The translations under genes and the position numbers were made by a program. The notes beneath the pieces were generated by a model. The model made no database searches and was not told where the DNA came from. It worked only from the letters and a program-made list of their open reading frames with translations. Of a stretch of 64,000 nucleotides of DNA, positions 38,458-54,000 are shown piece by piece (position 1 is the stretch's first letter; every line of letters begins with the position of its first letter). The DNA is from Euryodendron excelsum. Taxonomy: Eukaryota > Streptophyta > Magnoliopsida > Ericales > Pentaphylacaceae. The DNA lies in assembly GCA_033060915.1 (NCBI GenBank), contig CM065389.1, positions 24,698,501 to 24,762,500 on the forward strand, written 5' to 3'.

Positions 38458-38639
38458 TGTAAGCACCCCATTTTTGACCGCTCGGCAGTTTACACTCCGT
38501 CCAGACTTGTTTTCAAGTCATTTTGGGCATATTCCTATCGAATCCAACCCTCTAGGTCCAAATTTTGTCTTTCCATTGCTTCGCGGGCTTGTCAGGCCCA
38601 AATAGAGGCAAAATGACATAAATGCCCTTAGGGGCATTG

Positions 38640-39446
38640 TCCTTTCTTATTCCAATTCCAATCCCTCTCTCGAGACAGTTTATTCCTCGAGACGGTCCGA
38701 GTAGCAAAACTACTCACAGAACCGTTGGAGTAGCGGAAATACTCACAGAACCGTTGGAGTAGCGGAAATACTCACAAAACCGTCAGAGTGGCAGAAACAC
38801 TCACAATCCAGGCATGTCTCCTCGGAGACGGTAAGACCCCTTTCCAATCCCTCTCTCGAGACAGTTTATTCCTCGAGACGGTTCCAATCCAGGCACGCCT
38901 CTTCGGAGACGGTAAGACCCCTTTCCAATCCCTCTCTCGAGACAATTTATTCCTCGAGACGGTCCGAGTAGCAAAAATACTCACAAAACCGTTAGAGTAG
39001 CGGAAATACTCAACAGAACTGTTAGAGTAGCGGAAATACTCACAGAACCGTTAGAGTAGCGGAAATACTCACAGAGCCGTTAGAGTAGCGAAAATACTCA
39101 ACCGTTAGAGTAGCGAAAATACTCACAGAACCGTTAGAGTAGCGGAAATACTCACAGACCCGTTAGAGTAGCGGAAATACTCAACCGTTAGAGTAGCGAA
39201 AATACTCACAGAACCGTTAGAGTAGCGGAAATACTCACAGACCCGTTAGAGTAGCGGAAATACTCGCAGACCCGTCAGAGTAGCAGAAATACTCACAAGA
39301 CCCGTTAGAGTAGCGGAAATACTCACAAAACCGTTAGAGTAGCGGAAATACTCACAAAACCGTTAGAGTAGCGGAAATACTCCCAAATCATCAACCCCGT
39401 CCGAGTAGTGGAAATACTCACACCGTTAGAGTGGCGGAAATACTCA
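38640..39446 (+). repeat. Array of GAGTAnnnnnnnTACTC hairpin units
   Basis: About twenty units of 24-31 bp have the core GAGTAGCGGAAATACTC, each with 5-bp inverted arms. They usually join through CACAGAACCGTTA. Near the left the units alternate with three copies of a CCTCTCTCGAGACA...TATTCCTCGAGACGG segment that is itself an inverted repeat. The array lies near the 5' end of the long LTR. Confidence 0.85.
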
Positions 39447-39519
39447 AAACCTAGGTCAACACCAGTGGTTGTTAGCTCACTTCGGTGAAAAAGGACCAGA
39501 CTACCTTTAGGACCTTTTC

Positions 39520-40110
39520 CGAGACTTTTCGGTCAAGATGACCATTTTGGCCCCTAAGCATCCGAATGCCCTGGGAACCACACCGGCTCTGGGTATCAAA
39601 CCGGTAATGTCCCGAGAATACTTTTTATAGTGTTCTCGACCTTCCTTTACCTTTCCGGACCATTCTGAGTTAGTTCTGGCCAACTCGGTACAAAATGACC
39701 GTTTTGCCCCCGGAGGGCCGGTCTCCTTCTTCGACCACACCGGCTTTGGGTATCAAACCGGTAACCTCTTGAGAATACTTTTTATAGTGTTCTCAACCTC
39801 CCCTTTACCTTTTCGGACCATTCTGAGTTAGTTCCGGCCAACCCGGTACAAGATGACCGTTTTGCCCCTGGAGGGCCGGTCTCCTTCTTCGACCACACCG
39901 GCTCTGGGTATCAAACCGGTAATGTCCCGAGAATACTTTTTATAGTGTTCTCGACCTTCCTTTACCTTTCCGGACCATTTCGAGTCAATTCCGGCAAACC
40001 CGGTACAAAATGACCGTTTTGCCCCTGGTGGGCCGGTTTCCATTTCCGACCACGCCGGCCCTGGGAATCAAACCGGCAACCTCTGGGAACATTCTAAATA
40101 ATGTTTCCAG
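39520..40110 (+). repeat. 157-158-bp tandem repeat, four copies
   Basis: The word ACCACACCGGCTCTGGG (or close variants) occurs at about 39577, 39734, 39892 and 40049, a spacing of 157-158 bp. Each unit carries AATGACCGTTTTGCCCC, TATCAAACCGGTAA and TACTTTTTATAGTGTTCTC. The fourth unit is the most diverged. Confidence 0.85.
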
Positions 40111-42077: not shown

Positions 42078-43747
42078 TGTTGGCCCAAGTAGGCAACCCA
42101 AGAGGGGGGGTGAATTGGGTTTTATAGAATTTTTAACAAGAGTTTCAACTAAAAAATCGTTTATGGATTTTAGTAACAAATAATCAAAGTATATGTATCA
42201 AGCAAATGAAGTGTACATTAGAGCAAGTATTTGCAAGCATGCATAATAAGCAAGTAAGCAAAACAGAGGCAGAAGAAATATGCACCAGATTTATAGAGGT
42301 TCGGCCAACCTTGCCTACGTCCTCTCTTCTTCGATCCTTTCGAAGGAATTCCACTATGCAATACACCTTACACAGCCGCTGGTTGTGCCACGAGTGCCCA
42401 GCTCACTCTTTACAAAAGCTTCTTCCCAAGCTTTCAAAACCCAAGAGATTTTGTCCAAGCTTCTCTTAAACTTACAAGTGTTTTTCCCAAGAACACTTAA
42501 ACTTACAAGGTTACAAACCCTCCCAAACAAGAATGAATGAAGATTATACAAAGAGTGACTCTCCTAGTGAGTATACAAATGAATACAACTCAATGGATAA
42601 CTTTAAACACTCAGCAAGAATATGTAACAGTTAGGTGCAGGTGATTTTTAGCTTTGAAGCACTTGATATGAATGGTATAATTGCTCTTTCTTTTTTCTTT
42701 GAAGCTGTATATATCTCATATATATAGGTATGGATCGATTCTAGCCGTTGGAGAAGTATGGGAGAAGATTTGGTTGTGTTTGTGCCCATACCGTCTGTCA
42801 GAAAACTAGCCGTTAGAGTCTAGGAGTCGACTCTTTTCTCAATGAGTCGACTCTTTTTGCATTTCAGCAGATTTTTCAAGTTTCTGTCCAAATGAGTCGA
42901 CTCTTTTGTCCTAGGAGTCGACTCTTTTCAGCAGTCTGCAGAATTGTTTGTTCTCTGTTGCAATGAGTCGACTCTTTTTGGCCAGGAGTCGACTCTTTTA
43001 AGCTTCCAGCAGAATTCCAAGGCTCTGTTCGAATGAGTCGGCTCTTTTAACTTGAGGAGTCGACCCTTTTTCCAAAAACCCATATTTTTGTAACTTTTCT
43101 TCATTCTTTTTCAAAGCTTCCAATCTCTTCAAGGATCATCTAAATAGGCTTTTTAAAGCTTGCAAACACTTCTTCAAGATTAGATGACTCCAAGAACATC
43201 TTCAATCCATTCAAGGTGAGTTTTCTTCATTTTCATCACTTGTAGAGCTCTTCCATTATCATAGCTTCATCTATTGATTCAAGTCTTCTTCAATATCTTC
43301 AAGAGAGCTTCCATGACTTAGAATCTTCATTTCTTCAAACAACATGGCTTTTCCATGGACTTCAACAACTCAAGAAAGCTTTACAAATCTTGTGATTCCT
43401 TCCATGTCTTCAAGACATCTTTACATCTTCTAAGAAAGCTTCCATATTTTGAGTTGGTATCTTTTTCTTCCATTCTTGCAAGATATCTTCAAGTACTCAA
43501 AGTCTTCAATCTTTTAAATCAATACTTTGATCATTTTCATTCTTCTTCTTTGATATCCATCATCTTCATTCTCTTGTAACATCACCATTGTAGAATACAT
43601 CACTCCATCATGCTTTTTATCATAAATCCTCTATTATGATAAGCTTCAAGTCAAGATCTAATTAATAATTCATCTGCACACTAAGTAGAATTATTAGATC
43701 ATTTAACCATGTTTTGTTATCATCAAAATCAAGGCATTGACTCAACA
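42078..43747 (-). repeat. Copia 3' LTR (1670 bp)
   Basis: Same sequence as 51043-52713, lacking one T of a homopolymer. The polypurine tract lies immediately to its right at 43750-43763, as expected for the 3' LTR of a minus-strand element. The region 43090-43600 is rich in the word CTTCAAG and its variants. Confidence 0.93.
42824..43071 (-). promoter_or_regulatory. Eight GAGTCGACTC-type palindromes in 3' LTR, upstream of TATA
   Basis: Eight near-identical 10-bp palindromes GAGTCGACTC, each followed by TTTT on the plus strand, fall in alternating pairs AATGAGTCGAC and AGGAGTCGAC. Spacers carry CAGCAGA and CTCTGTT words. Two units have one change each (GAGTCGGCTC and GAGTCGACCC). On the minus strand the cluster lies about 100 bp before the TATA-rich segment at 42709-42728, so in U3. 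Repeated palindromes before the TATA box have been reported in Sireviruses. Confidence 0.85.
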
Positions 43748-44410
43748 ATCTCCCCCTTTTTGATGATGACAAAACATTAAAAATATATGCAATTAAGCTC
43801 AATATAAAACATGAGGATGAATATGTATTTGAAGTATGGGACTTCAAAGTCTCAGTTTTCTTTCCATGTCAATATATATATATTTTTTATAAGTATTCTC
43901 CCCCCCTTTTTGTTAATCAATCAAAAAAAAAAAAAATGCAAATTTTGAATGAGAAGGTGGAGTCATAGTTCAGTTTTTTAAAAAAATCCTCCCCCTCAAT
44001 GAAGGAGTTTTCTTTGAAATGGCATACAAAGAAGCCTTTAAGAGTATAGACAATATGCTCAAAATTCTAAGAGGCTCAATAACTTGCAATATCAGAAAAA
44101 TTTAGATAAAGGAAGATTTTTATACCATGCCTTAGCTCCCCCTTGCTTTTGTATTCTGTGCCTTAGAGCAGTCTCAGATTCAGGGTAAAGCAAATTCTAA
44201 CTCAGAAGTGCAGGGTATGTAGGCAGCTGGTGATGTAAAAAATTCATGCTGCATTCATTGGATACTTCTTACTGCTTTAACTTCATCAAACCAATGCTCC
44301 CCCTTTCCTTTGCAGTTGATGCCTTATGATATAATTCCTGGTAGTGCATTGAGGAGTGTTTTCTCTCCTTTTGATCTTTTTGAGAAAAATTGCTCCCCCT
44401 TTTTGTCAAA
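43748..44410 (-). promoter_or_regulatory. Six polypurine-tract-like sequences in 3' region
   Basis: CTCCCCCTTTTT-type tracts (purine-rich on the minus strand) lie at about 43750, 43897, 43988, 44141, 44297 and 44391. The one at 43750-43763 touches the LTR and is the working polypurine tract. The others are spaced at roughly 90-160 bp. Multiple polypurine tracts are reported for Sireviruses. The remaining sequence to 44734 is non-coding. Confidence 0.75.
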
Positions 44411-44734
44411 TCCTCAAAAAGAGGAGTAATAGATGGAGAAAAACAGACAGGTACAATAGCAAAAAAAAAATAGTATACAATGATGTTTATGTGAAGATCA
44501 TTTACAAAGATAGTTAAAGCAATCATTCATTCAGTATTGTTAAAGCAATCATTCATTCAACCAAACACAAATGAGATAGCAATGTTAAGATAAAGAGATT
44601 CAAAACACACCATTCATTCATAAAGAAATATTGAAAGAGTTTAACAAAAAGAACCATCCACAAACATATTACATGATGCTTTAGAAAATGTCTTGTTCAA
44701 AAACAGAAAATAGAGAGTTCAGAGGCAGAGGTCT

Positions 44735-46348
44735 TCATTTTCTTTTGGGAGAAGGAGTTTGAGAGAGATCAACTGGATTATCAGCAGTGTTTGTAAATTT
44801 GCTGCTTGAAGGTCTTTGTCTCAGGCCATATTTGTGAGGAGCTACAGAAGACTTTGGAGGAGTTTGGTCAAGAGGATCAGAGGGGTCTGCAGGTGATGGC
44901 TGAGAAGAGGTATGCTCCCTTCCACTGGATCCTTCCAACTCATCAGTACTTGAGTCTTCTGCTACAAATTCTGCTGCTGAAGGGAAGAGTGGCTGGTATT
45001 GGTCTCCCACCAGCTTCTTCATATATTTGCCAATATGCTCAGTGGAAAGAGCAATGTCATTGGCAACTTTCTCTCTGATTTTGGTTCCTTCAGACACAAA
45101 GGCCTTGCTCAATTCTCTTACCTTCTTTTCAACAAAGAATAATCTAGTTGCCCCATTATCAATTTTCTTATCCAATTTAGTGAACATCTCTTCTTGATGC
45201 CTTTTCAAGTCTCTTACCATGCTCATCAAAATACTCATATCTACTGATTGGCCACCTGGAACAATGCTCATTGGAAAAAGTTCCCTTGGAGTAGGAGAAG
45301 AGGCAGGTCTAGAGGGTTCACCACTTTCTGGTATGGCACTGGAAGGTTCACCTCTTTCAGTGGATTCAATTCCAGGAGTCCCACTGTCAATATGTTTCTC
45401 TTTTCTAGGGGTCCAGGTCTTGCTCTGTGGGTTGAAGTGATAGCCCATCCTTGGCAAAGTTTTCTGATTATACTCATCTGAATTAGAATCAGGAGTTCTG
45501 TGCTTTTCACCCCTTAAATCTATCTTGAAGTGTTTAAAAATTTTGGTCAAGAGGATCCCATAGGGTAGGCTAACTTTGGTTCTTGAGGCTTTGACAATGT
45601 GCTCTAAAATAAACTCAGGCAAATCAATTTTAGTGTCTGTCAAATAAGCCCAGAGGAAAAACAATTCCCTTTCAGTGATATAGTCAAACTTTCCACCTTT
45701 AGGAATGAGAATGTGACAAATAAAGTGATGCACCAATCTCAGTTCCAAAGGCAAGTCATTGGCCATGGGTTGGAATGAATCATCAGTAATTTCCTTTCCC
45801 AGTAAAGCAGATAAAGCAGTCTTTCTACTAACATCTTTCTTGTCCATTTGCCCACCACTACCAATTTTTAAAATTTGACAAATCACTCCTTTAGTGAGGG
45901 TAATGGTTTCACCCTTCACATAACTAATCACATTTACTTCTCCAGTTTCCTTTTCTACATGGGCATAGAATTGTCCAACAATTTCAGGATATACATCATC
46001 CTTTAACAAAGTAATAGATTTCCAACCAAGAGCTTCAAATTTTGGTTCAAAAGCAAACTTCTCTTTAGCAAAGAAAGCATAATCTATCCATCTTCCATTT
46101 AAAATGACTCTAGAAGAGAAAATTTTCTCATACTTATCTTGATTTGATTTCTTCTCAAAGTAAATGGTGTTGTCGAGAAATACATCTTCCTCCTCCTCAG
46201 TTTGCTTCCCTTTTCTCCTCTTTGAAAGCTTAGAAGAGTCCCCTTTAGTCTTCCTCTTCGTTCCTCTCTTGGATATGGGAGTCGGCTCTTTTAGGGCTTT
46301 CTTGCCTTTCTTCGATGGAGCAGATTTAGGAGCCATGGAAGGTTGCAA
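44735..46348 (-). CDS. Extra ORF after pol: plant-transposon-protein-like, coiled coil
   Basis: A frame of 537 codons on the same strand as gag-pol, in the position where Sireviruses carry an env-like gene. The better start is the second Met (46336), in ATGG context. The N-terminus is highly basic (residues 8-50, several KR clusters, likely nuclear), followed by EEEED. Residues about 60-300 resemble the putative plant transposon protein domain (PF20167 type), with LGW, a VYPEIVGQFYA block and an ITLTKGVICQIL block. A Pro/Ser-rich linker (310-360) follows, then a helical, probably coiled-coil segment (370-455) and a Ser/Pro tail. No signal peptide or membrane segment is seen, so it is not an obvious envelope protein. 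Function unknown. Confidence 0.75.
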   Translation of the reverse strand: MQPSMAPKSAPSKKGKKALKEPTPISKRGTKRKTKGDSSKLSKRRKGKQTEEEEDVFLDNTIYFEKKSNQDKYEKIFSSRVILNGRWIDYAFFAKEKFAFEPKFEALGWKSITLLKDDVYPEIVGQFYAHVEKETGEVNVISYVKGETITLTKGVICQILKIGSGGQMDKKDVSRKTALSALLGKEITDDSFQPMANDLPLELRLVHHFICHILIPKGGKFDYITERELFFLWAYLTDTKIDLPEFILEHIVKASRTKVSLPYGILLTKIFKHFKIDLRGEKHRTPDSNSDEYNQKTLPRMGYHFNPQSKTWTPRKEKHIDSGTPGIESTERGEPSSAIPESGEPSRPASSPTPRELFPMSIVPGGQSVDMSILMSMVRDLKRHQEEMFTKLDKKIDNGATRLFFVEKKVRELSKAFVSEGTKIREKVANDIALSTEHIGKYMKKLVGDQYQPLFPSAAEFVAEDSSTDELEGSSGREHTSSQPSPADPSDPLDQTPPKSSVAPHKYGLRQRPSSSKFTNTADNPVDLSQTPSPKRK

Positions 46349-46535
46349 ATGACGGTTGAAGGAAGTTAGAAAGATTCTAGGATGATCAAATATAGGTTGG
46401 GTAAGGATTGAGGGAGAGTTTTTCGGTGGTTGGAAGTGGAGATGGCGGTTGATCGTGAAAGAAGAGAGAAATTTGAAACGTTGGAATGATTTGAATAAAA
46501 CAGGGATGTTACAGTTTTAAAGTGATTTTAACTTA

Positions 46536-46726
46536 AATGAGTCGACTCATGGTTAAAAAGGGTCGACTCTTTTTGAGCGAAGAAAGCTTCCTGAGCTCTC
46601 TGTTCAAATGAGTCGACTCTTTTGCTAGGAGGAGTCGACTCTTTTCGACAGAGGACATGTGAGGCTGATTCCAGAGTCCAGGAGTCGACTCTTTTGGAGC
46701 ATGAGTCGACTCTTTTTCTCCAGAAA
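46536..46726 (-). promoter_or_regulatory. Six further GAGTCGACTC motifs before the extra ORF
   Basis: Six GTCGAC-centred motifs, five with a full GAGTCGACTC core and one GGGTCGACTC, lie between the pol stop (46830) and the extra ORF start (46336). The flanks match those of the LTR: CTCTGTTCAAATGAGTCGAC here and CTCTGTTCGAATGAGTCGG there. The 190 bp downstream on the minus strand is a CT- and CA-rich leader ending CCTTCC ATGG. A TATATATG-like stretch lies upstream at about 46808-46818. This looks like a second promoter module, which is inference. Confidence 0.7.
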
Positions 46727-46829
46727 TGCAAAGATGTCTTTTTAAAAGCCATGAAATGCATCAAACAAGTTTGTAATCAATTTCAAGGATACTTATGCAT
46801 TTATCAAACATATATAAACATCTAAGCAT

Positions 46830-49800
46830 TCAAGATAAAGGGTTGCTCATTCCCAATTCTCTCCTAATCATACAAAACCTATCTTCATTCAAGGGTTTTG
46901 TGAATATATCTGCAAGTTGATGTTCAGTACTCACAAAATCAAGCAAAATGTCACCTTTTTGCACATGATCACGTATAAAATGATGTCTAATCTCAATGTG
47001 CTTTGTGCGAGAGTGTTGGATAGGGTTTTTAGTCAGATTGATGGCACTTGTGTTATCACATCTAACTGGAATATGTTCAAATGTTAAACCAAAGTCTTCT
47101 AATTGATGTTTTATCCAAAGCACTTGTGCACAACAACTTCCGGCTGCAATATACTCAGCCTCGGCTGTAGAAAGTGCAACAGAGTTTTGTTTCTTACTAG
47201 ACCATGAAACAAGCATATTTCCAAGAAATTGACAAGATCCACTAGTACTTTTTCTATCAACTTTGCTACCAGCATAATCAGCATCTGAATAGCCAATTAA
47301 GTTCAAAGATGTGTTTTTAGGATACCACAATCCAAGATTAGGTGTGTGCTTAAGGTATCTAAATATTCGTTTAACAGCAACAACATGTGATTCCTTTGGA
47401 TTAGATTGAAATCGAGCACACAAACATACACTAAACATAATATCAGGCCTACTAGCAGTCAAATAGAGCAATGAGCCTATCATACTTCTATATAGCTTGG
47501 TATCTACCGAAATACCTTTCTCATCACTGTCAAGTTTTGTTGAAGTATTCATAGGAGTGCCCAATGGTTTCGCATTTTCCAGCCCAAACTTCTTGAGTAG
47601 ATCTTTGATGTACTTAGCTTGGTTAATGAAAATTCCTTCCCTTGATTGTTTGATTTGAAGTCCAAGGAAGTAATTGAGCTCACCCATCATGCTCATCTCA
47701 AACTCACCCTGCATACACTTAGCAAATTCTTTGCAAAGCTTTTCATTAGTAGAGCCAAATATAATGTCATCAACATAAATTTGCACAAGCAACATGTTAT
47801 GATTTTTAACCTTTATAAAAAGAGTTGTATCAACCTTACCTCTCGTAAAATCATTTTCGGTTAAAAATTTGCTTAGCCTTTCATACCAGGCCCTTGGAGC
47901 TTGCTTTAAACCATATAATGCTTTAGTAAGTTTGAAAACATGTTCTGGAAATATAGGATTTTCAAAGCCAGGAGGTTGTTCAACATACACCTCTTCAGAA
48001 ATAAAACCATTCAAGAATGCACTCTTCACATCCATTTGATAGAGTTTGAAATTCTTGAAACATGAAAATGCAAGCAACATTCTAATAGCTTCTAATCTAG
48101 CTACAGGTGCATACGTCTCATCAAAATCAATACCTTCTTCTTGACTATAGCCTTGAGCTACAAGTCTAGCCTTGTTTCTAATAATGGTTCCAGATTCATC
48201 TATCTTGTTTCTAAACACCCATTTGGTTCCAATTACAGGATGATCTTTAGGTCTAGGAACAAGATTCCAAACCTTATTCCTTTCAAATTGGTTTAATTCT
48301 TCTTGCATGGCCATAATCCATGACTCATCATTTTCAGCATCTTGAAAACATTTTGGTTCTATTTGTGAAAGGAAAGCAAGATGATTACACACATTTCTAA
48401 GAGATGATCTTGTTCTTACCCCTTGTGATGGATCACCTAGTATTTGCTCTGTTGGATGGTTGTGGACAAATTTCCACTCCTTTGGCAATCCTTCATTCTC
48501 ATTTTGTTGGCTTGAGGAGTCATCTTGATTTCCTTTGTCATGTGGTGAAGCTTCATTTTGAGTTTGATCAATGTTCATCTTATCCAAGTTCTTCTCCACA
48601 TCATCTATATCATCATTCACAGCCTTTCTAGACAAAGAGTTTAGTTCATCAAAAGTAACATGAATTGATTCTTCAACAACTAAGGTTTTCTTATTGTAAA
48701 CTCTATAAGCCTTGCTATGTGAGGAATATCCTAGAAAGATAGCTTCATCAGATTTTGCATCAAATTTACCAAGGTTGTCCTTGTTATTATTTAACACAAA
48801 GCATTTACATCCAAAAGCTCTAAAATATGAAACACTTGGTTTCTTGTTTTTCCAAAGCTCGTATGGGGTTTTATTTAAAAATTTTCTTACCAAAACTCTG
48901 TTTAACACATAGCAAGCTGTGTTAACAGCTTCAGCCCAAAAATATTTTGGCAAATTGTTTTCACAAAGCATTGTTCTCCCCATTTCTTCCAAAGTCCTGT
49001 TTTTCCTTTCAACAACTCCATTTTGTTGAGGAGTTCTAGGTGCTGAAAAGTTATGTTCAAAACCATTTTCATCACAATATGTTTCAAAAGGTTTGCAATC
49101 AAACTCACCACCATGGTCAGTCCTAATTGCTGTGATTGTAAATCCTTTTTCGTTTTGAACCCTTTTACAAAATTTGGTAAAGAAAGCAATTGTTTCATCT
49201 TTGTGAGCTAGAAAGAATGTCCATGTAAACCTTGAGTAATCATCAACAATGACAAGAGCATATTGTTTGCCAGCTAAGCTTAGAGTTCTAGTTGGTCCAA
49301 ACAAATCCATATGCAATAGTTGAAGTGGTCTAGAAGTAGAGAGCATGTTGGTAGATTTAAAAGATACTCTGGTTTGTTTTCCCATTTGACATGCATCACA
49401 AGTTTTGTCTTTTTCAAAATTAAGTTTGGGAAGACCATTTACTAACTCATTTTTAGAAATTTTTGAAATAATACTCATACTAATATGGCCAAGCCTTCTA
49501 TGCCACAACCAACTATCCTCTTTGCTCACAGCAGCAAGGCATTTGATCTTACAAGAAGATAATTCATTTAAGTTGAAAGTGTAAATATTGCCTTGTCTTT
49601 GGCCAGTCAATATGATCTTGTTATCATTTATGTTTACTACATTACATTTAGATGATTCAAACACTACTTTGCAACCTTTGTCACACAATTGACTAATGCT
49701 TAACAGGTTGTGTTTAAGTCCTTTAACAAGTAGAACATTCTCAATAGAAGTTGAAGAATTTTTACCAATACTACCTATACCGATGATCTTGCCTTTGCTA

Positions 49801-50198
49801 TTATCTCCAAAAGTGACCAATCCTCCATCTTTTGGTGTGAGAGAAGTGAATTGAGTTTCATCTCCAGTCATATGTCTTGAACAGCCACTGTCCAAGTACC
49901 ATTGATCCTTTTTGGAGTTGGCTTGAAGACACACCTCTGTTTCTTCTTCATGTGCCATAAGACATAGGTTGGCTACTTCATGAGTTTCAGATTCATCTAA
50001 GCTTGAATCCTCACTGTCACTCCATGTTGCAGCTAGAGCCTTCTTCCCTCTTTCTTTCTTTCCTTTCTTTTTCAGCTGAGGACACTCATTTCTCATGTGT
50101 CCTGGCTTTTTGCATTCGTAGCATATGATGGTAGAATCCTTGTTGTTGGATTCACCTTTTGCTTCAATCTTCTTTCCTCCCTTCCACCTTCTTCTCAT
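46830..50198 (-). CDS. pol: Copia pol polyprotein (protease, integrase, RT, RNase H)
   Basis: One open frame of 1122 codons. In order: CCHC zinc knuckle with C26, C29, H34 and C39; aspartic protease with D103-S104-G105; integrase zinc finger H233, H238, C267 and C270; integrase core D298, D361 and E397 with 35 residues between the last two; reverse transcriptase with YVDD at 808-811; RNase H with D972, E1013 and D1048. All catalytic residues are present and no stop interrupts the frame. It copies the RNA into DNA and inserts it in the nucleus. The ORF opens mid-gag because of the frameshift at about 50333, so its own first Met is not the true start. After its stop, 480 bp separate it from the extra ORF. 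Confidence 0.95.
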
Positions 50199-50986
50199 GA
50201 ATCTCTTGAATTTTCTTGTGATGAGAGCAAGATCTTCCTCATCTTCTTCTTCACTTTCAGATTCATTTTCTGATGTGGTGGTCTTGAATGCAACCGACTT
50301 CTTTTTCTTGTCCTCTCCTTCTTGAGCATTCTGTTTCGGGTTAGCTCATAAGTCATAAGAGAGCCAAGAAGTTCTTCAAGAGGTAGAATGTTGAGGTCTT
50401 TAGCTTCTTGAATGGCTGTCACCTTTGCTTCCCATGTCTTTGGCAGTGATCTTAAGATTTTTCTCACCTGTTCACTGTTAGGATACACTTTTCCAAGAGA
50501 CTTTAAGCCATTTACAATGTCAGTAAATCTGGTGAACATCTCAGTTATAGACTCATCAGATTTCATTCTAAATAATTCATAGTTATGCACAAGAATGTTA
50601 ATTTTTGACTCCTTGACCTGATTTGTTCCTTCATGAGTTACTTCAAGTCTGTCCCAAATTTCTTTGGCAGATTCACAGGTAGAAATTCTATTGAACTCAT
50701 TTGGATCTAATGCACAATATAAGATATTCATAGCCTTAGCATTAGATTGCATAAGCTTCATGTCATTCTCATCCCATTCATTTTCAGGTTTGGGGATAAC
50801 TTCTCTTTCAATAACTTTGCTGGGAGTTTTAGGACCATTAACGATAATCATCCATAACTCATAATCAACGGATTGAATATAAATCCTCATTCTATTCTTC
50901 CAATAGTTGTAGTTTATACCATTAAACATTGGAGGTCTATTAGTGGATTGACCCTCACCTAGAGAGCTTCCAAACATGGTTGCCAT
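50195..50986 (-). CDS. gag: Copia gag polyprotein, N-terminal frame
   Basis: A frame of 263 codons starting ATGGCAACCATG at 50986. It has the retrotransposon gag domain of the copia type: [20 protein letters not shown] near residue 20-40, then [20 protein letters not shown] and [20 protein letters not shown]. It forms the virus-like particle that packages the RNA. The natural reading continues through an acidic linker and zinc knuckle in the pol frame. A one-base deletion in a short homopolymer around 50333-50335 throws this frame off, and the last 40 or so codons are out of frame. The gag and pol frames overlap by a few bases at 50195-50198. Since the LTRs are nearly identical the shift is very recent, or is a sequencing error. 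Confidence 0.88.
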
Positions 50987-51028
50987 GGATCAACTCTAAG
51001 GATGTTAAGCCTTTAAACTAGAGTACTA

Positions 51029-51040
51029 GCTCTGATACCA
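51029..51040 (-). promoter_or_regulatory. Primer-binding site, initiator methionine tRNA
   Basis: TGGTATCAGAGC on the minus strand begins two bases after the 5' LTR. It is the standard site complementary to the 3' end of plant initiator-Met tRNA used by copia elements. Confidence 0.92.
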
Positions 51041-51042
51041 AT

Positions 51043-52713
51043 TGTTGGCCCAAGTAGGCAACCCAAGAGGGGGGGTGAATTGGGTTTTATAGAATTTTTA
51101 ACAAGAGTTTCAACTAAAAAATCGTTTATGGATTTTAGTAACAAATAATCAAAGTATATGTATCAAGCAAATGAAGTGTACATTAGAGCAAGTATTTGCA
51201 AGCATGCATAATAAGCAAGTAAGCAAAACAGAGGCAGAAGAAATATGCACCAGATTTATAGAGGTTCGGCCAACCTTGCCTACGTCCTCTCTTCTTCGAT
51301 CCTTTCGAAGGAATTCCACTATGCAATACACCTTACACAGCCGCTGGTTGTGCCACGAGTGCCCAGCTCACTCTTTACAAAAGCTTCTTCCCAAGCTTTC
51401 AAAACCCAAGAGATTTTGTCCAAGCTTCTCTTAAACTTACAAGTGTTTTTCCCAAGAACACTTAAACTTACAAGGTTACAAACCCTCCCAAACAAGAATG
51501 AATGAAGATTATACAAAGAGTGACTCTCCTAGTGAGTATACAAATGAATACAACTCAATGGATAACTTTAAACACTCAGCAAGAATATGTAACAGTTAGG
51601 TGCAGGTGATTTTTAGCTTTGAAGCACTTGATATGAATGGTATAATTGCTCTTTCTTTTTTCTTTGAAGCTGTATATATCTCATATATATAGGTATGGAT
51701 CGATTCTAGCCGTTGGAGAAGTATGGGAGAAGATTTGGTTGTGTTTGTGCCCATACCGTCTGTCAGAAAACTAGCCGTTAGAGTCTAGGAGTCGACTCTT
51801 TTCTCAATGAGTCGACTCTTTTTGCATTTCAGCAGATTTTTCAAGTTTCTGTCCAAATGAGTCGACTCTTTTGTCCTAGGAGTCGACTCTTTTCAGCAGT
51901 CTGCAGAATTGTTTGTTCTCTGTTGCAATGAGTCGACTCTTTTTGGCCAGGAGTCGACTCTTTTAAGCTTCCAGCAGAATTCCAAGGCTCTGTTCGAATG
52001 AGTCGGCTCTTTTAACTTGAGGAGTCGACCCTTTTTTCCAAAAACCCATATTTTTGTAACTTTTCTTCATTCTTTTTCAAAGCTTCCAATCTCTTCAAGG
52101 ATCATCTAAATAGGCTTTTTAAAGCTTGCAAACACTTCTTCAAGATTAGATGACTCCAAGAACATCTTCAATCCATTCAAGGTGAGTTTTCTTCATTTTC
52201 ATCACTTGTAGAGCTCTTCCATTATCATAGCTTCATCTATTGATTCAAGTCTTCTTCAATATCTTCAAGAGAGCTTCCATGACTTAGAATCTTCATTTCT
52301 TCAAACAACATGGCTTTTCCATGGACTTCAACAACTCAAGAAAGCTTTACAAATCTTGTGATTCCTTCCATGTCTTCAAGACATCTTTACATCTTCTAAG
52401 AAAGCTTCCATATTTTGAGTTGGTATCTTTTTCTTCCATTCTTGCAAGATATCTTCAAGTACTCAAAGTCTTCAATCTTTTAAATCAATACTTTGATCAT
52501 TTTCATTCTTCTTCTTTGATATCCATCATCTTCATTCTCTTGTAACATCACCATTGTAGAATACATCACTCCATCATGCTTTTTATCATAAATCCTCTAT
52601 TATGATAAGCTTCAAGTCAAGATCTAATTAATAATTCATCTGCACACTAAGTAGAATTATTAGATCATTTAACCATGTTTTGTTATCATCAAAATCAAGG
52701 CATTGACTCAACA
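51043..52713 (-). repeat. Copia 5' LTR (1671 bp)
   Basis: On the minus strand it opens TGTTGAGTCAATGCC and closes TTGGGCCAACA. It contains the GAGTCGACTC cluster (51789-52037) and then, downstream on the minus strand, a TATA-rich segment at about 51674-51693. The sequence matches the other LTR over its length, with one extra T in a run near 52030-52036. Confidence 0.93.
51789..52037 (-). promoter_or_regulatory. Same eight-palindrome cluster in 5' LTR
   Basis: This copy matches 42824-43071 unit for unit, apart from the one extra T after the last motif. As part of the 5' LTR it is the copy placed to control transcription of the element. Confidence 0.85.
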
Positions 52714-54000
52714 ATCCTATCTTCCCTTTAGGAAACCGAATCAAATCTCCCCAATTAGGAAACTAGATCCTATCCTCCGTTTTTGGAAATAAAATCCAAC
52801 CTTTCTCTTTTAGAAACTAAATCCAATCCCCTCCTAATCCCAAACCTTTCCTAATTCAATTCCTTCCTAAACCATAAGTTTCCTAAACCTAAACTTCAAA
52901 TCTTTCCTTAAGTTTCAAAATCCAAATTTTTCCTAAATTCGAATCCTTCTTAGACTTTCACTTTCCTGAATCTTAAGTTTCCAAAACTTGAACATAAAAA
53001 TCTTTCCTAATTCAACCCTTTCCTAATTCTACCCTTTTCCAAAATCTTTTTCAAATCTAAGTTTTCAAACCTTTCCTAAACTCAAGCCTTTCCTAATTTG
53101 AAGATTTTCTAAAACTCTAAAACTTTCTAAATCCTAAACTTTCTAAATTTCAAATCTTTCTAAAATTCTAAGCTTCCTAAATTCAAAACTTTCTAAATTT
53201 GAAACTTTCTTAAGTTGAATCTTTCTAAACCTAAAACTTTCTAATTCTAAACTCTCTTAAACTTCAAATCTTTCCAAATCTAAGACTTTTCTAAACTCAA
53301 AACTTTCTTAATTTAAGACTTTCTTAAGTTGAAACTTTCTTAATTCAAACACTTCCTAAGTTGAAAACTTTCCTTTTTCGAACCTTTCCTAAAACGAAAT
53401 TTTTCTTATTTTCAAAACTTCCTTGTTTTCAAAACTTTCCAAATTCAAAACTTCCCTTTTTCAAACATTCCAAAATTCAAAACTTTCTTAATTTGAAACT
53501 TTCCAAATTCTAAACCTTTTTCAAACTAAACTTTTCTTAATTCAAAACATTTCTATATTCAGTATTTTCCTATTTCAAAACTTTCTAAATTTCAAACTTT
53601 CCAATTTTCAAAACTTTCCAATTTCCAAACTTTCTTAAATTCCAAACTTTCCAAAAATGAAACTTTCCTAATTTCAAAACTTTCCTAAAATGAAAACTTT
53701 CCTAATTTCGAAACCTTCCAAAAATGACACTTTCCTAAATCGAGCATTTCATAATTCAAACATTTCCTAAATCCAACCTTTCCTAATCTCCTAAACCTTC
53801 CTAGTCGAGTCAAGCTTTTCCTAAGTCTAGGTTTCCTAAACCTCCATCTTCCCAAAACCAAGTCTTTCCAAAATCTATCTTTTCAGATCAAAGTCCAATC
53901 TTTTCAATTTCAATTTTCAATCTCCTCTTCTAATCTCAAATCAAATTCAAATTTCAATTCAATCTCTATCTTCCAATCCAGTCTCTTTCTTCAAATCAAT
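52714..54000 (+). repeat. Degenerate TTTCCTAAATTCAAAAC-type tract
   Basis: A low-complexity tract of short degenerate units such as AACTTTCCTAAATTC, read within the right part of the long LTR. It holds no gene. A matching tract on the other side of the copia insertion is at 41140-42070. Confidence 0.7.

Follow-up and report, generated by a model that had tools for sequence, protein, structure and literature searches.

When we analysed a 64,000-nt stretch of the Euryodendron excelsum genome (GCA_033060915.1, contig CM065389.1, positions 24,698,501-24,762,500 of the forward strand; hereafter the window), we found a young Sirevirus (Ty1/copia; 52713-42078, minus strand) in which the array of palindromic boxes carried by each LTR has a homologous duplicate inside the element, between pol and an additional envelope-like ORF, the copying having run from the LTR to the inside or the reverse. 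In two Ty3/gypsy families of this genome, whose extra ORFs are of the same class (PF20167), the two-array layout recurs with other words, GTTCGAAC and CGATCGATCG. The LTRs of the window element (5' LTR, 51043-52713, minus strand, 1671 bp, TG...CA; 3' LTR, 42078-43747, minus strand, 1670 bp) differ by a single A, and the element is flanked immediately on both sides by AGGAT, a target duplication of 5 bp; on these grounds we regard the insertion as recent. Between the LTRs, all on the minus strand, lie a gag ORF of 263 aa (50195-50986; Retrotran_gag_2 domain), a pol ORF of 1122 aa (46830-50198) with CCHC, Pol_BBD, gag_pre-integrs, integrase and RVT_2 in Ty1/copia order, and the env-like ORF of 533 aa (44735-46336; PF20167 Transposase_32). 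The account in PMC2829016 gives as marks of Sireviruses clustered AGGGGGAG polypurine tracts near the 3' LTR, the last one 10 bp before the LTR with an AT/TG junction, as well as CA/ATTGG with the PBS TATCAGAGC and a poly-C near the LTR 3' end. The window element has a copia-type reverse transcriptase with gag_pre-integrs, rve and then RVT_2 in ORF 46830-50198, five AGGGGGAG tracts at 43750-44400 (minus strand; starts 44400, 44304, 44143, 43996 and 43757), the final one followed by AT, after which the 3' LTR opens with TG, a 5' junction of CA/ATTGG followed by TATCAGAGC, and the poly-C integrase signal CACCCCCCCTCTTG near 42110, by the 3' end of the LTR. A comparison of the pol ORF with viral contigs gave three pattern matches, none of them confirmed. 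The LTR-to-LTR offset is 8965 bp in the window element (42844-51818) versus 9474-9659 bp in eleven neighbouring LTR-match pairs picked by eye, so that the window element seems to be the shorter by ~0.5 kb. The window also holds a ~16.5-bp repeat array (27 register copies, 53101-53787) and, near the element, 29-bp repeats and three ~158-bp repeats (38618-40084).

The box word of this element, GAGTCGACTC, occurs 17 times exactly in the 64-kb window, all within three arrays (six in the 3' LTR, five in the spacer before the env-like ORF and six in the 5' LTR); at two or fewer mismatches there are 31 matches, whereas dinucleotide shuffles averaged 11.8 (sd 3.4) and 0 of 100 reached 31. When boxes with one mismatch are counted, the 5' LTR array has eight boxes (six exact; 51789-52031, minus strand), the 3' LTR array eight (six exact; 42824-43066, minus strand; spacings 22, 49, 21, 50, 21, 50 and 20) and the internal array six (five exact; 46539-46712, minus strand; spacings 21, 50, 22, 50 and 21). 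These counts agree with a preliminary description of this DNA, which had proposed eight palindromes per LTR ahead of the TATA box and six of the same type in the spacer, where it placed them within 46350-46830; the common flanking word that it noted was recovered in the spacer as CTCTGTTCAAATGAGTCG and, next to LTR box 2, as CTCTGTTCGAATGAGTCG, and the leader that it called CT-rich has a C+T content of 0.66-0.69 over stretches of 46337-46538. A feature additional to that description is the alternation of ~21- and ~50-bp spacings in the LTR and spacer arrays, the LTR repeat unit being ~71 bp with two boxes each. Spacings of 20-22 bp are enriched versus random placement in both the LTR (4/7, P 0.0005) and the spacer (3/5, P 0.003), P values which, like those given below for other spacings, overstate independence because the units within an array are related by duplication. 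In addition, CpG observed/expected ratios in 300-nt windows rise to 0.98 (46713-46414) and 0.90 (46563-46264) where these cover the internal array with the leader, and are 0.60-0.78 over the LTR arrays, with one more CpG-richer LTR stretch at 51363-51064 (0.62), versus mostly 0-0.4 in the rest of the element.

The likeness between the internal and LTR arrays extends beyond the boxes. An alignment of the two (boxes included) gave a score of 83, with no shuffle above 27, and the 40-nt linker between spacer boxes 4 and 5 matched all three long linkers of the LTR (fractions of 2000 shuffles as good: 0, 0.0005 and 0), which are also related to each other; the second long spacer linker did not match the LTR long linkers above shuffles (P 0.08-0.32). 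Spacer boxes 5-6 look as if a unit of the type of boxes 1-2 had been copied in inverted orientation. As both arrays alternate ~21 and ~50 bp, and the likeness of one internal unit to LTR units includes the sequence between the boxes, we conclude that an array was duplicated; as spacer and LTR show no likeness after the boxes (P 0.50), the duplication took in the presumed enhancer part and not the core promoter. The preliminary description had held that an LTR enhancer was copied inside the element to drive the extra ORF from its own promoter: the homology of the arrays upholds the copying, but an own promoter gained no comparable backing, the core not being copied and the spacer TATA being no better than chance. 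The LTR TATA box, CTATATATAT, was read in the sequence of the 5' LTR (51692-51683, minus strand) and scored against shuffles in the 3' LTR (42718-42727, minus strand), where the site at 42727 lies ~96 nt past the last box and 3% of shuffles hold an equal one; in the window spacer, the best TATA-like site after the internal boxes was equalled in 91% of shuffles (TATA scoring used hand-made weights from the consensus presented in PMC2829016). The leader from the last box to the ATG (46337-46538, minus strand) has no TATA above chance and is ATG-free; since an ATG is equally lacking in 35% of shuffles, we discarded this as a sign of a 5' UTR. The 60 open codons 5' of the env-like ATG were likewise discarded as a signal (found in 14% of shuffles), as was read-through from pol in the manner of SIRE1, because the env-like ORF is in another frame and the pol stop at 46830 is accompanied by two more in-frame stops within 100 codons. 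A second promoter in the window spacer is, in our reading of the sequence, a candidate.

The arrays recur throughout the window's family. Among env-like ORFs of this family in the 1.06-Gb assembly, the best 81 of 5543 candidates were scored; all are 97-100% identical and 63 of the 81 (the window's own counted) have no inner stop, and the family is very young. We read 50 spacers, comprising the 30 best matches (the window's own among them) and the 20 with the lowest scores among the 81, together with the 3' LTR arrays of the 20 lowest-scoring copies. A search for the motif in other Sirevirus copies, which the preliminary description had suggested, identified by a relaxed pattern at least four boxes in 50/50 spacers and at least six in 20/20 LTRs. 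Length changes of a box unit were found in the spacers of 7 of the 49 other copies (five losses of ~22 bp, one of 50 bp and one gain of 22 bp) and in 2 of the 20 LTRs (a 21-bp loss in one and a 21-bp gain in one), and such changes are a likely route by which arrays lengthen and shorten. Across the 49 other copies, non-CpG variants numbered 0 shared and 6 singleton in the spacer boxes and 28 shared and 52 singleton in the remaining spacer, and the LTR boxes of the 20 copies had 4 shared and 8 singleton; no clear constraint on the boxes is evident from polymorphism in the 49 copies.

A PF20167 search of the same genome, in which the best 150 of 5576 candidates were scored, led to the gypsy families. 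Upstream DNA was read at 12 of the 150 scored loci (just 1 kb each for L066-L069), and box clusters were present at six of them, consisting of CGATCGATCG at L058, L059 and L061 and of GTTCGAAC at L060, L068 and L069, the last being irregular and ambiguous in its position relative to the ORF. The other six (L055, L056, L057, L062, L066 and L067) had no convincing cluster in the DNA read; L057 has a copia pol end like that of the window element, and L062 and L067 have a few copies of GCGATCGC with 22-bp spacing. The GTTCGAAC element at C17:32272547 has, upstream, a reverse transcriptase and RNase H and then an integrase, which is the gypsy order. A 27-base pattern from its LTR recurs exactly 11,909 bp apart, flanking the element on both sides, and has 112 genome matches at three or fewer mismatches (control 0); 4 of 11 picked pairs of this pattern enclose a scored PF20167 hit. 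The 3' LTR of this element has eight exact boxes followed by CCCTATAAATAC, and its internal and LTR arrays are 74% identical over 111 bp (boxes included), with no clear TATA seen by eye after the internal array. As the integrase end of the CGATCGATCG family is 77% identical to that of the GTTCGAAC element, we took this family to be gypsy too, a Pfam search with the integrase-end fragment of L058 having returned no family; both families presumably belong to an Athila-like lineage. In the literature, PF20167 is tied to Athila ORF1 in the text of PMC11728184.

The internal array of the CGATCGATCG family ends with a box, ~14 nt, TATATAAAG, and then an ATG ~220 nt on. This box-TATA module was found at 84 places in the genome (36 forward and 48 reverse; control 0 and 1) with a gap of 13-14 nt in 83 of these, and a scored PF20167 hit lies downstream on the same strand in 35/84, always at one place: 454-470 nt from the 3' end of the matched pattern where the match is on the minus strand, and 494-502 nt from its 5' end where it is on the plus strand. 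The LTR version, a CGATCGATCG box then AGTATAAAAG, has 814 genome matches, some of them overlapping (control 1). A TATA box after the gypsy LTR array was seen directly in one LTR per family, and the CGATCGATCG-TATAAAAG LTR pattern and the 27-base GTTCGAAC pattern each recur ~11-12 kb apart; among 14 picked CGATCGATCG LTR pairs on contig C1, five enclose an exact internal box-TATA, five a scored PF20167 hit and four both. Judged from sequence, the CGATCGATCG module is the clearest sign that internal arrays may belong to promoters, although it stands outside the window's own family. Spacings of 20-22 bp make up 4/7 in the GTTCGAAC LTR (P 0.0005 versus random placement), 4/7 (P 0.0005) and 3/7 (P 0.008) in two GTTCGAAC internal arrays (one-mismatch boxes counted; the irregular L069 left out) and 3/10 in the CGATCGATCG internal array (P 0.03), versus 0/7 in the CGATCGATCG LTR array. 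The independent fact regarding geometry is that the ~21-bp format is common to two families of two superfamilies. An extra cluster of eight CGATCGATCG boxes was observed at L063 (1545-1750; G000:C4:8648826-8649031), ~2.2 kb before a gypsy LTR array. We also observed that a TCGA core is common to GAGTCGACTC, GTTCGAAC and CGATCGATCG, and to the words CGGTCGACCG of Vitis and ACAATCGATTGT of Tnd-1 as printed in PMC2829016; this could reflect one class of factor, or CpG-centred methylation sensing.

We propose that the boxes are paired binding sites, that the LTR array is an enhancer of the genomic-RNA promoter, and that the duplicated array serves a second start from which a short env-like mRNA is made, a reading to which we give about an even chance. 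A dimeric DNA-binding factor, probably one of the host's transcription factors, would bind the boxes, those of a pair, ~21 bp apart, being separated by about two helical turns; the LTR array would serve as an enhancer upstream of the TATA promoter from which genomic RNA is made, and its duplicate between pol and the env-like ORF would act on a second start, presumably TATA-less in the window's family, to give a short mRNA for this ORF. The enhancer reading draws support from the position of the LTR array ahead of a TATA box, from the internal array being its homologous copy, from the recurrence of 21-bp pairing in the unrelated GTTCGAAC gypsy family (P 0.0005-0.008 over both families), from the box-TATATAAAG module that precedes PF20167 in the CGATCGATCG family, from the gypsy LTR arrays preceding TATA boxes, and from the tracking of ENV by linker boxes (9/9 versus 0/4 in the table given in PMC2829016). 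Counting against it are the TATA of the window spacer, no better than in shuffles, the lack of a clear one in the GTTCGAAC family, the 0/7 spacings of 20-22 bp in the CGATCGATCG LTR array, the six ENV-bearing Sireviruses that PMC2829016 reports as without boxes, the polymorphism of the 49 other copies, which shows no clear box constraint, and the six of 12 sampled PF20167 loci at which no convincing cluster was present.

Expression of the env-like ORF from a 5'-LTR transcript that is spliced or processed in another way, in which case the internal boxes make no promoter, seems to us rather unlikely. Splicing is reported for barley Bagy2 in the text of PMC7264820 and splice acceptors were predicted in the gypsy elements BAGY2 and Athila according to PMC2829016, the pyrimidine-rich leader would also suit a 3' splice site, and the lack of a TATA above chance in the window spacer would be expected; however, this leaves unexplained why, in three families of this genome and in nine Sireviruses of PMC2829016, the element's LTR-type array stands 5' of the extra ORF, and in the CGATCGATCG gypsy family a box-TATA module is plain to see at that place. 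That the boxes act as foldback RNA or DNA, i.e., as hairpins feeding small RNAs or structuring the genomic RNA, we consider quite improbable. The spacer RNA is predicted to pair box 1 to 6, 2 to 5 and 3 to 4 (z -6.5), as the inverted look of boxes 5-6 would favour, the LTR array folds at z -5.0, and the antisense spacer beats all 150 versions in which the boxes were kept and the linkers shuffled (z -3.8); a 2016 paper is also said to have dealt with palindromes of maize Sirevirus LTRs and the host response. Against the same kind of control, however, the values were z -2.1 for the sense spacer, which 4.7% of the control versions equalled, z -1.4 for the antisense LTR and z +0.8 for the sense LTR. 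Since these controls fold similarly, most of the folding is due to the self-complementary boxes as such and we rejected an RNA fold as the main function; 21-bp pairing and a place ahead of TATA boxes would also go unexplained.

The box-sized length changes in 7/49 spacers and 2/20 LTRs would suit arrays that are functionless by-products of replication slippage, in which self-complementary words multiply and shrink, but slippage does not explain why unrelated families have arrays, of different words, at these two places, ahead of the LTR TATA and 5' of the env-like ORF, and we find this account highly improbable. The env-like protein itself has a very basic N-terminus (11 K/R in 20 residues) and, by a crude test, no transmembrane segment (best 19-residue Kyte-Doolittle mean 1.07, with 0 above 1.6), and its sequence looks more like that of a nuclear protein than of an envelope. 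Structure prediction gave a mean pLDDT of 42 and no usable fold; a long helix was predicted at residues 367-446 with low confidence. Such a protein might bind the boxes and control its own element, by analogy with VANC and the VANDAL transposons, and the box word is common within an element and different between families; VANC targets are short motifs in fast-changing tandem repeats (described in PMC5735166). This we hold to be very doubtful: the ENV-less Sireviruses OPIE-2, PREM-2, Osr8 and Tnd-1 keep their LTR boxes according to PMC2829016, and the VANC domain DUF1985 is absent among the best 25 of 27 Pfam families matched (E up to 10) by nine env-like proteins.

The question of own-promoter expression and of the role of plant 'envelope-like' genes, which dates from 2002 and was considered again in 2010 (as related in PMC2829016), could be approached in a single genome, where a very young Sirevirus family and a gypsy family with a clean box-TATA module form a side-by-side system. 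We further speculate, with little confidence, that PF20167 retrotransposons of both copia and gypsy type could have a common two-promoter scheme, in which each family has, at both promoters, a private 'address' of palindromes paired at 21 bp, read by an ORF protein that would be a nuclear DNA-binding regulator and not an envelope and that activates or de-silences its own family. If copia and gypsy elements truly have the layout in common, it would be a property of the extra gene and not of Sireviruses.

Foamy viruses are retroelements with LTR and internal promoters, the internal one lying inside env and driving accessory genes; the window element resembles them in its pairing of an LTR promoter with a putative internal one, and there is no known relation between the two. 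The maize gypsy element Grande is similar in that gene23 is an extra ORF between pol and the 3' LTR with a promoter just 5' of it (PMC7264820), but gene23 is an antisense ORF, and the description of Grande in PMC7264820 includes no array common with the LTR. VANDAL21 also has arrays of a short motif in non-coding regions of one transposon family, as VANC targets are described in PMC5735166; in contrast to the window element it is a DNA transposon, its motif YAGTATTAY is not a palindrome of the GAGTCGACTC kind, and binding by its own protein was demonstrated there. Much the closest are the palindromic RM boxes of Bousios et al. 2010 (PMC2829016), reported in 13/21 Sireviruses, where each family has its own word, repeated at least eight times in an element and concentrated in the LTR ahead of the TATA box. 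According to Table 3 of PMC2829016, linker boxes occur in 9/9 box-bearing Sireviruses with ENV and 0/4 without (the latter keeping their LTR boxes), the nine having 79 linker copies with 77 before ENV. Boxes are absent from six further ENV-bearing Sireviruses of PMC2829016. The preliminary description's view that the two-array layout had not been described in this form is thus not upheld, and the hypothesis of an internal promoter goes back to Peterson-Burch and Voytas 2002, as discussed by Bousios et al. 2010 (PMC2829016). The window element resembles the ENV-bearing elements with RM boxes of PMC2829016 in its palindrome, its at least eight copies, its LTR cluster before the TATA, its extra boxes 5' of the ENV-like gene (six, 46539-46712) and its CpG-rich boxes in a CpG-poor element. 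The RM word nearest to GAGTCGACTC among those in PMC2829016 is CGGTCGACCG of Vitis; GAGTCGACTC lacks the CGG-CCG core present in 12/13 of these words, as does Tnd-1, and we therefore regard it as a variant RM of the Tnd-1 kind. The letters of GAGTCGACTC in the retrotransposon paper PMC2582038 were, among the matches listed, those of a vector primer and were dismissed. RM was called Sirevirus-specific as judged against other Ty1/copia elements, being absent from 'classic' ones (PMC2829016); a term search of the main text of PMC2829016 found no rule of box spacing, no LTR-to-linker duplication and no gypsy boxes, and the papers listed by searches of an open-licence library included no gypsy precedent for such boxes. 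We therefore rate the window's case as a further RM-box Sirevirus whose word is a variant; what is new is the layout in gypsy elements.
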